Origin: Desulfobacteraceae bacterium
GTDB lineage: Bacteria; Desulfobacterota; DSM-4660; Desulfatiglandales; Desulfatiglandaceae
NCBI GenBank assembly: GCA_030613055.1
Contig: JAUWMR010000001.1
Span: forward strand, 1 to 64,000
Length of the DNA stretch: 64,000 nucleotides
Direction: 5' to 3'
Below the pieces are notes generated by a model. It was given only the letters and a program-made list of their open reading frames with translations, was not told the origin of the DNA and did no database searches. Below, one piece after another: positions 12,619-44,188 of the stretch. Within the stretch, counting starts at the first letter, position 1, and each line of letters starts with the position of its first letter. The position numbers and the translations under genes are program-made.

Positions 12619-13760
12619 AATTTCAGATTCAGCGAATTGGCTTGCAGGCCGGTAACTTCTAAAGAAGGCGTTTTTATCCTGCTGATTTTTTCTGCTAACT
12701 CCTCGATAGACCCCTGATATTTCACCTCAAGAAGCGCATAACCGGATTGAAAGCTCCGTGTCTTTATATCAACCAAACCCCGAATCCTGCGCAAACCATC
12801 TTTAAACTTGGAAAGCCCGCTGAACGATGCCTTTGAAATGTTCAACTCATAGGTCCCCGCCTGAAAAACATCCTTCCTCCACTGCTTGAGTATCCCCGCA
12901 ATCATCTCGTCAGCCAACTCGGCGGTAGCATCCTGCAATGGGATCAGGGCTTCAGCGCCAGAGGCAGGACGTGTTTTGTATCCGGAAAAGAGGACTTTTC
13001 CGGTATCGGTTTCTAATGCCTTCAGACGAATTTCATTTGAAAAAAAACGTGTAGCCCTTCCGAATATCCGCCTTTGATCCACAAATGTGCGTCTCACTTC
13101 TCCCTGGACAAGGATTTCCGCTCCGTAATCCCTGGCAATTTTATTTGCCCTTGAAGGATCACCCTTTAATAGCAGGGTTTCCAGTTGTTTCTTCCGATTG
13201 ACCTGGCCAGCATCAACTAATTGAAATCCCCTTTCAATCAGGCTACTTTCTACCTGGTTTTCCGCGTTCCGGTTTCCCTCTAAGGCTACCCCTATCCACG
13301 AGCTGTTCATCTCTCTGCTGTATATAACGACCATGACCCTTGGATTTTGCTTTTTCCGGATCAGCAGCCCAATGGATTGAAGATCATCAGCCAATTTGCC
13401 CATCTTAACCAGGGCGGATATTTTCACCTCATAGAGGCCATCCGTTTCTCCCTCTCGCAGGACCCTGTAGCTCTGGATATACCCGCTGCTCTCGGTATAA
13501 ATACGATCTTCGACAAGCCTTTTCTGTTCAACCGTCAATTCTGTGGTCACATATGTTCCAACACCCTGTTCCACAGCCTTTCTAAGGGCATCGTTTAACG
13601 CCCCATCACGGGCCTTCGCGGATTTGCCGTCGGCTACGCCAATGGCGATTACCTCCTTTCCCTTCTCATCCTGAACAGCAGTTGAAAATCCCGGAAAAAG
13701 AAAAAAGAAAACAAGGAAAAAGATCACTACCAGATTCTTATATATTTTTATTTTTATCAA
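12609..13760 (-). CDS. FlgT/LPP20-like secreted protein
   Basis: About 383 residues with a hydrophobic signal segment (NLVVIFFLVFFFLFPGF) and then a FlgT N-terminal-type domain: GVADGKSAKARDGALNDALRKAVEQG, then YVTTELTVEQKRLVEDRI and SSGYIQSYRVL. A second domain (about 150-300, ILVQGEVRRTFVDQRRIFG) resembles the CsgG-related middle domain of FlgT. FlgT builds the outer ring of some flagella, but no flagellar genes are near; the CsgG-like neighbour points to another envelope structure. I favour a TTG start at 13760, with GAGGGG six bases upstream; an alternative TTG is at 13775. Confidence 0.65.
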   Translation of the reverse strand: MIKIKIYKNLVVIFFLVFFFLFPGFSTAVQDEKGKEVIAIGVADGKSAKARDGALNDALRKAVEQGVGTYVTTELTVEQKRLVEDRIYTESSGYIQSYRVLREGETDGLYEVKISALVKMGKLADDLQSIGLLIRKKQNPRVMVVIYSREMNSSWIGVALEGNRNAENQVESSLIERGFQLVDAGQVNRKKQLETLLLKGDPSRANKIARDYGAEILVQGEVRRTFVDQRRIFGRATRFFSNEIRLKALETDTGKVLFSGYKTRPASGAEALIPLQDATAELADEMIAGILKQWRKDVFQAGTYELNISKASFSGLSKFKDGLRRIRGLVDIKTRSFQSGYALLEVKYQGSIEELAEKISRIKTPSLEVTGLQANSLNLKFNK

Positions 13761-13821
13761 TTGGAGCCCCCTCAAACAGGTTAAAGGGAAAATGATTATG
13801 ATCTCCTTTCGGTTTTAGGCA

Positions 13822-14742
13822 CTATTGTACTGGAATGACGTCCATTCCTTTTTTAATGCCTCCGCCGCTTATAACCTCACATATTGATAACTTCTTTTTA
13901 ACCGTCACCACTCTAATCGTACCCACAGTCTCCGTGCTCTGGTCTAATACCTCTCCGGTATCAGGGTCCCTTATAACCTCTGACTTTCCAACGTCAAAGC
14001 GCTGGCCCACTGTAATGCCTTCCCTTTCACCCCGGTTGATATACACCTTTTCGCCTTTTGCCAGGACCACGGTACCTGTCCAGGGAATGGACTCTAATTT
14101 TGATATCAGGAATTCAACGCCCTCATCAACGGCCTGTTCCATTGCCTTTCCCGCGTTGGTCTTTCTGAACCCACCGACATCACCGGAAAAGCCACCTTTG
14201 GACAGGCCAAAAGTGAGCCCTGTCTTAGAGACCTTTCCATAGCACTTCTTGGAGGCCATTACCTGTCCTGTAGTGGAGTCAACAATATACATCACCACAT
14301 TGATCTCGGAATTGCTTTGAGATCCCCCTAACCTGAAGCCTTTGTACCCGACACCGGCCCCTCCCCCGCTTGTCTCATCCGCAAAATGGGTGATAGCACC
14401 TTTAATGAGGAGCTGGGCAGGCGTCATATATCCGGTGGCAACCTTTCTGCCCCCGCCCGCGGCACGTCCGCTCGCCGCAAAATCCTGCTCCTGCATGGCG
14501 TCCCGTCTCATATCCTGCTCACCTAATACAATGAATCTTTCGGTCTTATTCAGGCTGTCAGTTAAGACCGCGCCCCATGCGTCTCCAAGGCTCCATTGGC
14601 CTCTCCAGTTGGATCTATTTTCAAATCTGGAAACGGCTATAGAGTATCGCAGCCCTCCTGCCTGGGCCAGGCATTCTCCTGCCACTAATAAGACAAGGGC
14701 AAAAAGTATTCCAGCTATTAAAATACTTTGATATTTTCTCAT
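13822..14742 (-). CDS. CsgG/HfaB-like curli assembly family protein
   Basis: A 306-residue exported protein. Signal peptide about 1-27 (ILIAGILFALVLLVAGECLAQA), without a canonical lipobox. The body follows the CsgG fold: SIAVSRFENRSNW, LGDAWGAVLTDSLNKTERFIVLGEQDM, then LLIKGAITHFADET, VVMYIVDSTTGQVMASK and EQAVDEGVEFLISKLE. A C-terminal extension (about 230-306) with VYINRGEREGITVGQRFDV is an extra beta-rich domain. CsgG proteins form outer-membrane secretion pores; lack of the lipid anchor and of curli subunits makes the role here uncertain. AGGAGGG precedes the ATG; it probably starts the operon running to the cyclase. Confidence 0.75.
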   Translation of the reverse strand: MRKYQSILIAGILFALVLLVAGECLAQAGGLRYSIAVSRFENRSNWRGQWSLGDAWGAVLTDSLNKTERFIVLGEQDMRRDAMQEQDFAASGRAAGGGRKVATGYMTPAQLLIKGAITHFADETSGGGAGVGYKGFRLGGSQSNSEINVVMYIVDSTTGQVMASKKCYGKVSKTGLTFGLSKGGFSGDVGGFRKTNAGKAMEQAVDEGVEFLISKLESIPWTGTVVLAKGEKVYINRGEREGITVGQRFDVGKSEVIRDPDTGEVLDQSTETVGTIRVVTVKKKLSICEVISGGGIKKGMDVIPVQ

Positions 14743-14789
14743 TTTTCCCTCCTCAAGTTATTTCATTTTCTCTTAATATACAGACCTCG

Positions 14790-14966
14790 TTAAGTGGTTG
14801 AATAGTTGAGTAGTTAAGTGGTTAAATTCACGGCCATATTTGTTTTTAGTCCCACCGTGGCGGGAGACATTTATCATTTTGATATTTGCAACTTACTGAA
14901 ATTATAACAATTATTTTCCAACTCAACCACTCAACCACTCAACTATTCAACCACTCAACTATTTAA
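14790..14966. repeat. Inverted pair of 8-bp tandem arrays
   Basis: Left array 14790-14829 has about five 8-base units of consensus TTRARTRG (TTAAGTGG, TTGAATAG and variants). Right array 14919-14966 has six units of the reverse complement (CCACTCAA, CTATTCAA and variants). They bracket about 90 bases without a gene, in the gap between the CsgG-like and histidine kinase genes. Confidence 0.8.
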
Positions 14967-15007
14967 CTATATCTGAATATACTAAATAGACGAAAAGGTA
15001 TCCACTG

Positions 15008-35533: not shown

Positions 35534-36574
35534 CTATTCCTTGAATTCCATCTTCCTCCTTGCAGAAGGAATAAAGCCCGTAGGCCTGTAAATCATCATG
35601 ATAACCAGCAGGGCCCCAAAGGCGAGCATCCTGTATTGTTGCACACCGCGAAGGACTTCAGGGAGCCCGATCAGGATGACAGCGCCCAAAATAACCCCCG
35701 GGATACTTCCCATACCCCCGATAATGATCAGGCACAGGACATTGATGGAAACCATCAGGGAGAAATTTTCAGGGAAGATGGATCCCTGCCTGGCCGCAAA
35801 AATAGCGCCGCCAATCCCGGCAAATGAGGCCCCAATGGCAAAGGCAAGCAGCTTGTATTTTAGAATGTTGATTCCCATTACCGCGGCAGCGTCCTGGTCT
35901 TCCCGCATGGCGATCCAGGCCCTTCCGATACGGGAATTGTTTAGTCTATCAGCTAGAAAGGTAGAGAGAATGATGCCGGCAAGTATCATATAGTACCATC
36001 TGAAAGGGCTGTTTATGATAAAGTCCCCGATTGCTGGCGGATCAATTCTCAACAGGCCCCTGGGCCCATTAGTAACATGATCCATGTTGTTAAGTAATAT
36101 ACGGATAATCTCTCCAAAGCCCAGGGTCACAATGGCCAGATAATCGCCACGCATACGAAGAACAGGTATCCCGAGCAGGGCGCCTCCTCCTGCGGCAAGG
36201 GCCACACAGGCGGGAAGCATCAGCCAGAAGGGAATATGTATCCCGAAATGCGGAGAGGCCAAAAGGGCGTATCCATAGGCGCCAATGGCATAAAATGCCA
36301 CATAACCTAAGTCAAGGAGACCGGCAAACCCCACAACAATATTGAGGCCGATACCTAACATTACATAAATACCAATATCTCCCAGGACCTGCGTCCAGTA
36401 GTTACCCACCAGGGGAGGCAACAGTATCAACATAACCATTAGAACAGACAGGTAGACATTATAAGGAATACGGATTGTGGATTGTGGATTTCGGCATATA
36501 GTACGAATAGATCGTCCTCTTTTGCCGTTTTGACCTCCAACTTCGGAATTATGATTATTATCCTGATCCCTCAT
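35534..36574 (-). CDS. livM: Branched-chain amino acid ABC transporter permease LivM
   Basis: The 346-codon frame encodes a LivM permease with about nine membrane segments and the family motifs GIGLNIVVGFAGLLDLGYVAFYAIGAY near 75-100 and the coupling loop GRAWIAMREDQDAAAVMGIN near 225-245. The first 35 codons (MRDQDNNHNSEVGGQNGKRG and following) are hydrophilic, atypical of LivM and partly read through GGATTGT-type heptamers, so the annotated N-terminus is probably repeat-derived; initiation nearer the first membrane helix (about 36440) is possible. Confidence 0.9.
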   Translation of the reverse strand: MRDQDNNHNSEVGGQNGKRGRSIRTICRNPQSTIRIPYNVYLSVLMVMLILLPPLVGNYWTQVLGDIGIYVMLGIGLNIVVGFAGLLDLGYVAFYAIGAYGYALLASPHFGIHIPFWLMLPACVALAAGGGALLGIPVLRMRGDYLAIVTLGFGEIIRILLNNMDHVTNGPRGLLRIDPPAIGDFIINSPFRWYYMILAGIILSTFLADRLNNSRIGRAWIAMREDQDAAAVMGINILKYKLLAFAIGASFAGIGGAIFAARQGSIFPENFSLMVSINVLCLIIIGGMGSIPGVILGAVILIGLPEVLRGVQQYRMLAFGALLVIMMIYRPTGFIPSARRKMEFKE

Positions 36575-36622
36575 TTCTCACTTCTCACTTCTCACTTTTT
36601 ACTTCTAACTTTTAACTTCCAC
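36471..36622. repeat. Heptamer arrays at the livH-livM junction
   Basis: At 36574-36622 seven consecutive heptamers of pattern CTTYTMA run from the livM start into the livH-livM gap. At 36473-36493, inside the livM frame, three GGATTGT-type heptamers occur. The two arrays differ in unit sequence but have the same period. Confidence 0.75.
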
Positions 36623-41219: not shown

Positions 41220-41330
41220 CATATTTTGTAATAGTTTAGCACTTTGAAAACAGGACCGGGACATGGAGATCTCCATGTCCCCACAATCCGTGATCGATTT
41301 TTTCAAAGAGCTAAAATGTTACCATATTTT
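41220..41330. mobile_element. MITE-like element GTAATAG...TGTTAC with flanking direct repeats (copy 2)
   Basis: The 95-base element (41228-41322) starts GTAATAGTTTAGC and ends GCTAAAATGTTAC; about 20 bases of each end are imperfect inverted repeats. Its centre has a perfect 24-base palindrome at 41258-41281. CATATTTT flanks it on both sides (41220-41227 and 41323-41330), as expected for a target-site duplication. Copy 1 at 12539 lacks half of the central palindrome. Confidence 0.75.
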
Positions 41331-41352
41331 AAACAATAAAGGAGGAAGCATT

Positions 41353-42537
41353 ATGAGGGTTTTTATTGCCGGAGTTGACGGATACTTAGGATGGTCTCTT
41401 GCCATGTATCTTACAGCTCGAGGACACGATGTTGCCGGAGCAGACTGTTATCATCGGAGAGACTGGGTGGCCGAAATGGGATCTCAATCGGCCACCCCCA
41501 TAAAGCGAATGACCGAACGGCTTCAGGCATTCAGAGAGACTTTCGGGACTAATCTGCAGTTTATTCGAGGCGACATAACTGATTACAATTTCGTGTGGAA
41601 TTTTTTCAGGGCCTTTCAGCCGGAGGCCATTGTTCATCTCGCTGAAATGCCATCGGCCCCGTATAGCATGATCGATGTGCACCATTCTGCCTTTACCCAT
41701 ACGAACAACCTAATAGGGACCATTAATATTCTCCATGTGATGCGTGATATCTGTCCTGATGCCCACCTTGTCAAGCTTGGCACTATGGGGGAATATGGAA
41801 CACCCAATATAGACATTCCCGAGGGATTTTTTGAAATTGAATATCGCGGGCGCAAGGACACATTGCCGTTCCCAAAGCAGGCCGGAAGCTGGTATCACCA
41901 GACAAAAGTGCATGACACCAATAATATCATGTTCGCCTGTCGCGTATGGGGGCTCAGATCTACTGATATCATGCAGGGCGTAGTATTCGGAACCCGTATT
42001 GACGAGATGGGTTATGATGAAAGTCTGCTTACCCGTTTTGATTTTGACCAGTCCTTTGGCACTGCCATCAATCGTTTTTGCGCGCAGGCCGTCATCGGAA
42101 TGCCCTTAACCCCTTTTGGGAAGGGACATCAGAGAAGAGGTTTTTTACCTCTTCGCGACTCCATGCAGTGTCTGACCATTGCGATTGAAAATCCCCCTGA
42201 AGAAAAACAGTACAGGGTCTTCAACCAGTTTGAAGAGATCTATGACCTTACTGAACTGGCCGTTAAGGTTCAAAAGGTCGCGGCTAATCTGGGCCTTACG
42301 GTTGAGGTACGAAACCTTGAAAATCCCAGGCTCGAGCTTGAGGAGCATTATTACAATCCCGACCATCAGCATCTTATTGACCTGGGATATAAACCCACTC
42401 ACGACATTGAGACCGAATTGAAGATTATGTTAAAAGACCTGTTGAAGTATAAACATCGAATCGAAGCCCGGGCCCATGCTTTGATTCCTGACATTAGATG
42501 GGATGGATCAAGGAAGAAAGTCGGGTTTATAAAGTGA
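41353..42537 (+). CDS. sqdB: UDP-sulfoquinovose synthase
   Basis: About 394 residues matching SQD1/SqdB/Agl3. Rossmann motif GVDGYLGW (7-14), the catalytic set Thr144-Met145-Glu147 in LGTMGEYGTP, Tyr181 and Lys185 in SWYHQTK, and the long conserved FEIEYRGRKDTLPFPKQAG loop and RSTDIMQGVVFG. The enzyme adds sulfite to UDP-glucose to form UDP-sulfoquinovose. No sulfolipid transferase is near; placement in a glycan locus suggests a sulfonated surface sugar. The ATG at 41353 follows GGAGGAAG; the longer frame starting at 41263 lies in a repeat. Confidence 0.92.
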   Translation: MRVFIAGVDGYLGWSLAMYLTARGHDVAGADCYHRRDWVAEMGSQSATPIKRMTERLQAFRETFGTNLQFIRGDITDYNFVWNFFRAFQPEAIVHLAEMPSAPYSMIDVHHSAFTHTNNLIGTINILHVMRDICPDAHLVKLGTMGEYGTPNIDIPEGFFEIEYRGRKDTLPFPKQAGSWYHQTKVHDTNNIMFACRVWGLRSTDIMQGVVFGTRIDEMGYDESLLTRFDFDQSFGTAINRFCAQAVIGMPLTPFGKGHQRRGFLPLRDSMQCLTIAIENPPEEKQYRVFNQFEEIYDLTELAVKVQKVAANLGLTVEVRNLENPRLELEEHYYNPDHQHLIDLGYKPTHDIETELKIMLKDLLKYKHRIEARAHALIPDIRWDGSRKKVGFIK

Positions 42538-42540
42538 AAA

Positions 42541-43160
42541 GTGAGGAGAGGTGAGGGCTAAGGACTGAGGACTGAGGGCTGAGGGCTGAGCTCGCCTGCC
42601 GTACTGCGGGCAGGGACAGTGGGCAGGGGCTGAGGTTGAAATATCAATAAGTAACGTAAGATGAAAATATGAATAAAATTAAGCGGTTTGAAGATTTAAT
42701 AGCATGGCAAAAAGCCCGAGAACTTACAAAACAAATCTATTTTTGTACAAACAGCGGACCTTTTTCAAAAGATTTTGGATTACGTGAACAAATCCGCCGA
42801 GCATCTGTTTCGATCATGTCTAATTTGGCGGAAGGATTTGAACGTGGTGGGAGACCCGAATTCCATCATTTTACTGTAATCGCAAAAGGCTCCTGTGCGG
42901 AAATCCGGTCACAACTATATGTCGCACGTGATGTAGGATATATAAATAGCGATCAGTTTAATCAGTTATATAGCCTTGCAATTGAGGTCTCCCACATCCT
43001 TGGAGGTCTTAGATCAGCCCTTCAAAAACAAAGAGATAAAAACAAATGAAATCTAATAATAAGCATAACACTCAGTCCTTAACCCTTAGTCCTGACAACT
43101 CATCTTTGTCCTCAGTCCTCAGTCCCCAGCACTCTCACAAGCCAACATGTTGGCTTGTGA
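42541..43160. mobile_element. Cassette: four-helix-bundle gene between inverted heptamer arrays
   Basis: Left array 42553-42587: five heptamers GAGGGCT/GAGGACT. A hairpin CCTGCC/GGCAGG follows at 42595-42613. Then the four-helix-bundle gene (42669-43049). Right array: inverse heptamers CAGTCCT/TAGTCCT at 43073-43093 and 43106-43133. A perfect 26-base palindrome at 43135-43160 closes it. The right array lies inside the first codons of the epimerase gene. Confidence 0.75.
42669..43049 (+). CDS. Four-helix-bundle protein (23S rRNA intervening sequence/S23 type)
   Basis: A full-length 126-residue member. Landmarks: [20 protein letters not shown] (helix 1), [25 protein letters not shown] (helix 2, the family signature), [25 protein letters not shown] (helix 3) and the fourth helix to about 118. 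Family members are encoded inside 23S rRNA intervening sequences or alone, and are related to Avd of diversity-generating retroelements; they form pentamers that bind nucleic acid in that system. Function here unknown. Its TGA overlaps the epimerase ATG (ATGA). Inverted heptamer arrays lie on both sides. Confidence 0.9.
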
Positions 43161-44188
43161 CCGGTGGTTGTGGCTTTATCGGAACGAATCTTATTGCTCG
43201 CCTCCTGAAAAACGATCCGGGCACAAATATCAGGGTGCTTGACAACCTTTCAGTCGGGACCCGCGAAGACCTGGCTACCGTCTGCGGCTTTACCGAGAGT
43301 GACATCTCTTCACTCAGCCCTGAGTCCTCAGTCCATAGTCCTCAGTCCTTAGTCCTCAGTACTAGTGAAGACGCTTCATCAGTCCAGTTGTTTGTTGGAG
43401 ATATCCGAGATAAAGAAACCTGCCTGAAATGCTGCAAAAACACGGATGTTGTCGTTCACCTTGCCGCCAGCACCGGTGTTCCTGCATCCATTGAAAACCC
43501 CGAGTATGACATGACTGCAAATGTAATCGGGACATTTAACATGCTTGATGCCGCAAGAAGGCATCGCGTCAAGCGTTTTATCTTTGCATCTTCAGGTGCG
43601 CCCATTGGCGAGTGTGATCCGCCGATACACGAGGAGATTGCGCCCCATCCTGTATCGCCGTATGGGGCAAGTAAATTGGCCGGGGAGGCATATTGTTCGG
43701 CCTTCTTCCTCACCTTCGGTCTGGAGACAATTGCGCTTCGCTTTAGCAATGTCTATGGGCCCGGATCCGGCAGGAAAAATAGTGTTGTGGCCAGGTTCAT
43801 CCGGCGGGCTATGGTCAGCGAAAAGCTTGAAATCTACGGTGACGGCAAGCAAACGCGCGACTTTATCTTTATTGACGATCTGATTCATGCAATCTGTCTC
43901 GCAGCAACAGTAGGCGGGATTGGTGGGCAAATATTTCAGATTGCCACAAATACAGAGACAACGGTGCGCGGCCTGGTAGATAAACTCCTTCCAATTTTGG
44001 CCGATTCATGCTATGAGGGAATTGAAGTGCTCCATAAAAACCCGCGCAGGGGAGACGTTTTCCGCAACTTTTCGGATATATCCAAGGCCAGGGAAGTGCT
44101 CGGATGGAAACCTGAGTGCAGGCTTGAGGACGGCCTGAACAGCACCGTGAGATGGTTTATTACACACAGTAAAGGAAAATCCGCTTAA
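43046..44188 (+). CDS. NAD-dependent sugar epimerase with heptamer-derived insertions
   Basis: A 380-residue extended SDR. The Rossmann motif TGGCGFIG is at 39-46, normally within the first 15 residues; the 34 residues before it are read from heptamer array and are Ser/Leu-rich. A second array-encoded insertion (about residues 88-112, [16 protein letters not shown]) lies in the loop before [10 protein letters not shown]. The rest is normal: catalytic YGASK with Tyr206 and Lys210, then [17 protein letters not shown] and [17 protein letters not shown]-glucose 4-epimerase-like. Both insertions keep frame, so the enzyme may still fold. Confidence 0.87.
43307..43371 (+). repeat. Seven tandem heptamers in a coding sequence, bracketed by an 8-bp inverted repeat
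   Basis: Bases 43315-43363 (49) are exactly seven heptamers of consensus YAGTCCT. TCTTCACT (43307-43314) and AGTGAAGA (43364-43371) flank them as a perfect inverted repeat. Codons in the epimerase gene run straight through. Confidence 0.85.

Follow-up and report, generated by a model that had tools for sequence, protein, structure and literature searches.

An IVP/S23 gene between inverted heptamer arrays: a probable copy of a widespread mobile cassette at bacterial operon junctions

The window analysed here, a 64,000-nt stretch from a Desulfobacteraceae bacterium whose genome is available as 4.26 Mb in 97 contigs, contains a small IVP/S23 gene flanked by two inverted arrays of heptamers. The element is in all likelihood a mobile cassette, and the reading that we favour as a whole, with somewhat better than even confidence, is that it is one copy of a small, widespread cassette that amounts to a generalised 23S rRNA intervening sequence. 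The cassette consists of one IVP/S23 gene and two inverted-array arms, with a unit that is usually 7 nt long and of the form GTNCTGA. Its mobility is well supported. Gene and arms are inherited together as a unit, which is found at many unrelated operon junctions; individual junctions gain and lose the cassette, which can also lose its gene and persist as gene-less inverted arrays. The extension of the idea over much of the bacterial domain, about 20 phyla, is also supported. The features of the window that bear on this reading are as follows.

14781-14975, no strand assigned: related element without a gene, made of inverted octamer arrays (GTTAAGTG/GTTGAATA), with CAGA...TCTG at its ends and AATATA duplicated at the target
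36570-36618, plus strand: solo C-type heptamer array (CTCACTT) with no IVP gene nearby, from the tandem-repeat search
41263-42537, plus strand: host sugar-nucleotide epimerase/dehydratase gene, the upstream neighbour (profile match, PF01370)
42552-42590, plus strand: 5' arm, tandem heptamers of the GGACTGA/GGGCTGA type on the gene strand, inverted with respect to the 3' arrays (TRF period 7, 5.6 copies, 87% matches)
42595-42614, plus strand: hairpin CCTGCC...GGCAGG between the 5' array and the IVP gene (sequence and RNA fold)
42669-43049, plus strand: IVP/S23 four-helix-bundle gene, intact, 126 aa (profile matches)
43046-44188, plus strand: ORF of the host NAD-dependent epimerase, its start sharing the 4 nt ATGA with the IVP stop
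43066-43134, plus strand: 3' arm, reverse-complement heptamers of the CAGTCCT type (inverted repeats I5, I7, I8, I10 and I12)
43135-43160, no strand assigned: perfect palindrome of 26 bp, 13+13 without a loop (inverted repeat I13)
43313-43360, plus strand: further C-type heptamer array inside the epimerase coding sequence, in frame, in a variable loop (sequence and TRF)

An earlier sequence-only reading of the locus had proposed an intact four-helix-bundle gene between an array of heptamers and its reverse complement, with the N-terminus of the downstream epimerase drawn from the array, and all three proposals stand. The 126-aa product belongs to the IVP/S23 family by its matches, over the whole domain, to PF05635 (129.5 bits, E 7e-38, cut-off 33.8) and to TIGR02436 (115.9 bits, cut-off 24). 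Its nearest solved structure is XCC0516 of Xanthomonas (2GSC, E 4.8e-17), which the citing passage of PMC4990558 describes as five four-helix bundles arranged as a pentameric ring. The arms are inverted repeats with 76-94% complementarity. On the 5' side degenerate units extend back as far as the upstream gene's stop codon (42535-42537); the 3' array is split into two blocks (43066-43093 and 43108-43129) and encodes part of the N-terminal extension of the epimerase ORF, in which about 34 array codons precede the Rossmann motif. The ATGA overlap between IVP stop and downstream start, present in the window and at 19 of 108 loci, and the open frames across the 3' array, present at some loci, are both real without being universal.

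Arrays also encode N-terminal extensions of downstream host proteins at L120, L137, L140, L159 and other loci (e.g. NSQLETRNSKPQ and RLGPNPLNLSPQSS), and low-complexity N-termini in databases may often be the arms of IVP cassettes. In two genomes one and the same variable loop of the epimerase carries array-like inserts, at 43313-43360 of the window and at L337 of genome G008, pointing to an in-gene insertion hot spot. The hairpin and the 26-bp palindrome, which had been put forward as borders, fared differently at the two levels at which the proposal can be read. Both are present at the window locus, where the right half of the palindrome is the beginning of the conserved epimerase coding sequence and the palindrome is probably the border of this copy. 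As general borders of the class they were rejected, since perfect hairpins are not enriched, occurring in 0.7-2% of IVP flanks versus 3-4% of control flanks. Five loci compared with Rfam gave no match.

The arrangement seen in the window is general. The window's genome has 24 PF05635 matches, and nearly all of its full-length IVP genes carry a short tandem array on the 5' side and, on the 3' side, that unit in reverse complement, with units that vary by locus (GTGACGA, GGACTGA, GGTATTG, GATTGAA, AAAGTGACT and others). We scored flanks by the best local alignment between the 400 bp upstream of a gene and the reverse-complemented 400 bp downstream of it; for a mismatched comparison each upstream flank was paired with the downstream flanks of other loci. 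Matched and mismatched means were 25.2 and 13.0 for 62 IVP loci of the window's order, and 24.8 and 14.1 for 75 loci from about 20 phyla, the phyla being taken from record titles; 76% of the former and 85% of the latter loci score at least 18. The window locus (L002), with inverted arrays of a single unit round its IVP gene, ranks first among the 62 with a score of 32. The same threshold is reached by 7.3% of 328 other genes of the window's genome, by 15% of 190 neighbour genes and by 0 of 26 ParE toxin genes in the same genomes, the last chosen as a control for small genes that are often horizontally transferred (Fisher p 1e-29, 4e-27 and 4e-12, respectively). Other IVP genes thus show a very strong inverted period-7 excess over control genes, the pattern that the sequence-only reading had proposed to look for. 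None of 50,697 phage records carries an IVP gene, and plasmid carriage is rare (25 of 72,556, mostly cyanobacterial).

Several further observations concern the surroundings of these genes. Two or more IVP genes often lie 1-4 kb apart in one operon (G021, G024, G031 and G010:C539). A CRISPR array of the window's genome (repeat GGTTCATCCCCACGCATGTGGGGAACAC; L108, approximately 13600-14850) contains GTGACGA-type heptamers. Four very different IVP subfamilies (L083, L088, L089 and L090, in genomes G008, G013 and, twice, G010) are interrupted at the conserved codons SN/IAEG by an insert of about 290 bp that encodes an 84-aa GIY-YIG nuclease (PF01541, E 1e-15) and has ends CCTGTTAAATA.../...TATTTAACAGG in inverted orientation. 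This insert is a homing-endonuclease-like element aimed at IVP genes.

The arrays share a grammar that is linked to the gene they flank. The period is 7 in 114 of 134 arrays, and the G-rich strand lies 5' in 113 of the 134. Best-rotation alignment of 114 units gives the consensus GTNCTGA with a log-likelihood of -804, against -893 +/- 2.8 for a letter-permuted null. The higher the identity of two IVP proteins, the more alike are the arrays of their loci (cross-phylum Mantel r 0.37; highest permuted value 0.095). When two loci share an IVP clade and a unit, their neighbours are nevertheless non-homologous in 93 of 114 cross-phylum pairs and in 19 of 21 family pairs, and it is because such pairs have unrelated neighbours that we conclude that gene and arms travel together. 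A design with stops in all frames of the 5' arm and open frames in the 3' arm was considered and rejected: stops occur in 25 of 51 units versus 11 of 57, but 22 and 15 are obtained once the letters of the units are permuted, and the difference between the arms is thus one of base composition. Across 88 loci the arms also show a transversion asymmetry, with a G on the left and a T in the right complement in 104 cases versus 43 of the reverse.

Orthologous junctions differ in occupancy from species to species, and with the joint travel of gene and arms this supports the mobile unit that had been proposed from the window alone. Among 50 Flavobacterium species, sufC-sufD carries an IVP cassette in 14 and gene-less inverted arrays in 27, and is empty in 9. 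The cassettes measure 456-583 nt, with two IVP clades that have different units, and the gene-less arrays 56-91 nt; at the empty junctions 1-3 nt separate the stop from the ATG. On the flanking-gene tree of 49 of these species the state has changed at least 14 times, even among very close species, although recombination between species might account for part of the repeated occupation of a single junction. At accB-accC of a xanthomonad-like genus two species are occupied and six are empty, the empty junctions having 13-14 nt or a short unrelated spacer. In the two cassettes GGGAATC at the start and GATTCCC at the end stand tight against host codons; here the arrays themselves are the borders. 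No target-site duplication was detected at accB-accC or sufC-sufD, and none is visible at the window copy. Related species show empty, gene-less or IVP-bearing junctions and not constant arrays at a constant place, the outcome that a moving element leads one to expect.

For the window's own junction the comparison with relatives gave part of what had been hoped for. The orthologue of the upstream gene lacks a following IVP in three relatives (G113, G010 and G103), and because gene order around it also differs in the relatives, there is no exact empty site for this copy. In G113 the orthologue is directly followed by a RAYT-like gene that has Y1_Tnp and a DnaA C-terminal domain (L334:2748-3662).

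Where the cassette has kept its gene, the protein is under purifying selection: dN/dS of the IVP at sufC-sufD is 0.084 and 0.065 in the two clades, and that of sufD in the same species 0.050 and 0.044. In the xanthomonad-like genus 30 of the 35 GGGAATC arrays examined are inverted pairs round gene-less loops. Such arrays are present in both of the two genomes with IVP and in two of the six without a detected IVP; the genomes are few, and because of the latter two a direct dependence of the arrays on IVP is not proved.

We suggest the following scheme for how the cassette might work. It would have no promoter of its own and be expressed by read-through from the host, in which case only sense insertions would keep the gene. 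The IVP gene is sense to the operon in 97 of 101 cases with both neighbours on one strand; antisense copies exist, for example between nrd genes of a Nostoc plasmid. The IVP, a pentameric ring in its homologue and a distant relative of Avd, would bind the repeated unit of the arms, as the ring shape and the repetition together suggest; whether it acts on the arms is for us an evenly balanced question. It could help hairpin-ended DNA, or a copy of it, into gene junctions, and could also serve gene-less copies in trans, as RAYT does for REPINs. Since no nuclease or polymerase motif is known in the IVP, the cutting or copying enzyme would come from elsewhere, and its supply in trans seems to us reasonably likely. 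Unit sequences would diversify through slippage, and DNA-level copying of one arm from the other would keep the arms equal. Taken furthest, the scheme describes a new mobile class that makes its own locus-specific array ends, in which an IVP ring reads the GTNCTGA grammar and carries cassettes and gene-less copies into operon junctions, and from which the 23S intervening sequences and most unexplained intergenic heptamers of bacteria alike would derive. We advance this only tentatively, as something that falls short of an even chance.

Part of the evidence could be read at the level of RNA, the arms forming a stem in the operon transcript in which an RNase III cut frees the IVP message and processes the operon mRNA, the unit being free to vary as long as the arms pair. 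In the predicted RNA fold of the window's cassette (MFE -192.6, z -4.24) the two arrays do pair and enclose the ORF as a loop, the Coxiella intervening-sequence RNA is shaped alike and is a substrate of RNase III in vitro (PMC4990558), and the predominant sense orientation of IVP genes is what an RNA element would show. Selection for RNA pairing should leave G.U mismatches in excess, however, and at 88 loci G.U-tolerated and non-pairing mismatches number 178 and 186 (p 0.71); because mismatches show no G.U preference, it seems to be as DNA that the arms match. Pairing alone, moreover, leaves the period of 7, the shared consensus and the movement from junction to junction unexplained. An RNA role of the stem is plausible, and the stem may be a real by-product; as an account of the element we think it rather unlikely. 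Nor do we give much credence to the idea that these are ordinary non-autonomous DNA transposons, mobilised in trans by unrelated DDE transposases, with arrays that are slippage-expanded subterminal sites and IVP as a passenger. Two array families of the window's genome give it a real footing, both having terminal inverted repeats, outside or at the arrays, together with target duplications, as DNA transposons and MITEs do. One (L193-L211, with the window copy at 14781-14975) has ends CAGA...TCTG and about 20 dispersed copies, mostly with 5-bp duplications; the other (L223-L252), also built of octamer arrays, has ends GGATCATCTCC...GGAGAAGAACC and about 20 or more dispersed copies, of which three, one with an IVP remnant, show 8-bp AT-rich duplications and several hold a decayed IVP gene without the SNIAEG region. 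The duplications resemble ordinary transposase action, which could make IVP a passenger. But the two families are unlike in ends and in duplication length, so that no single transposase can account for the class; the ends at accB-accC and sufC-sufD are arrays and no duplication is seen; and a passenger would neither hold a dN/dS near 0.07 at one junction nor co-vary with the unit.

If the arrays were instead neutral simple-sequence repeats, raised at operon junctions by replication slippage and hairpin template switching, IVP would merely prefer such sites. Variation within arrays is indeed common, and the over-representation of heptamers in many bacteria has been attributed to polymerase slippage (discussed in PMC4679880 and PMC4692102). 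Yet arrays above threshold are scarce elsewhere, with only 20 in 463 kb of the window's genome (and 0 in shuffled sequence), unit and IVP clade go together at unrelated sites in different phyla, and empty junctions have no array, all of which makes a neutral origin very unlikely. Hardly credible, in our judgement, is a host regulatory system in which a global regulator binds the paired inverted arrays, IVP being that regulator and kept because it benefits the host. Paired heptamer and octamer arrays of Geobacter metallireducens have been annotated as global regulator sites (PMC2700814), and the purifying selection on IVP would fit; units differ between copies in one genome, however, so that one regulator cannot read all of them, and the 14 changes of state among Flavobacterium species are not what a host function would leave. 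The mobile cassette stands a fair chance of deserving a class of its own beside the intervening-sequence element.

To our knowledge, S23/IVP proteins have had a structure since 2006 and no function, and the over-representation of heptameric repeats in bacterial genomes has been noted for years without an origin. The link between IVP and heptamers turns both puzzles into one testable system: units vary by cassette and follow protein clades, which makes the specificity of protein for unit testable. The cassette occurs in about 20 phyla, sits at junctions of core operons (suf, acc and nrd), extends host proteins by peptides and has a fast turnover. As to novelty, which had also been claimed, within the open-access literature we found no paper that ties IVP genes to inverted arrays outside rRNA and no description of a heptamer-flanked IVP element. 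Its pieces are known separately, as the heptamers of the Coxiella intervening sequence (PMC4990558), the xanthomonad GGGAATC repeats (PMC4692102) and the 'global regulator binding sites' of Geobacter (PMC2700814).

Comparison with known systems places the cassette near several of them. The Avd protein of diversity-generating retroelements belongs to the same four-helix-bundle superfamily, with weak matches of the window IVP to PF22296 and NF033474, but the scores are far below the Avd cut-offs (NF033474 19.7 bits versus 80, bAvd 23 versus 40) and no reverse transcriptase with template and variable repeats is present among the neighbouring proteins scanned by profile. REP/REPIN sequences and RAYT offer a closer likeness, in short gene-less inverted repeats dispersed between genes and a single gene flanked by the repeats. 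Unlike RAYT, IVP is not a Y1 transposase: the protein encoded between the repeats of the window gives no match to Y1_Tnp (HUH), and the arms of the cassette are arrays of variable heptamers. With MITEs and insertion sequences the two array families of the window's genome share terminal repeats and target duplications, whereas typical IVP cassettes end in arrays and have no detected duplication.

The heptamers themselves have been met before, and the cassette offers a common origin for several repeats that were reported separately. The GGGAATC repeats of Xanthomonas and the GGGGATT repeats of Nostoc are the same 7-nt arrays in convergent inverted pairs; PMC4692102 found no connection with mobile elements, and its accessible text does not mention IVP. 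An IVP gene lies between GGGAATC arrays at accB-accC of a xanthomonad-like genome, and GGGAGTA arrays flank IVP on a Nostoc plasmid. The TAACTGA repeats of Beggiatoaceae, proposed as possible regulatory elements (PMC4679880), and the class 3 MTYCTGA repeats of Geobacter (PMC2700814) are intergenic tandem heptamers near the consensus GTNCTGA; in contrast to cassette arms they have been read as regulatory sites.

The nearest relative is the intervening sequence of 23S rRNA, long suspected of being mobile. In Coxiella and Leptospira it shares with the cassette the protein family, an ORF enclosed by terminal inverted repeats which pair into a stem, as the arms of the window copy are also predicted to do, and an orientation sense to host transcription. 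It differs in lying inside a helix of 23S rRNA, whereas cassettes lie at junctions of protein-gene operons, that of the window between two genes for sugar-nucleotide enzymes, and have inverted array arms with a locus-specific unit. The Coxiella ORF is, moreover, decaying, while the IVP of the cassette is clearly under purifying selection. Three GACAGAT heptamers stand just before the S23p ORF of the Coxiella element (PMC4990558), and because protein family, inverted repeats and these heptamers are all shared, rRNA intervening sequences and cassettes are probably one class, in which the cassette gives the intervening sequences a natural parent.
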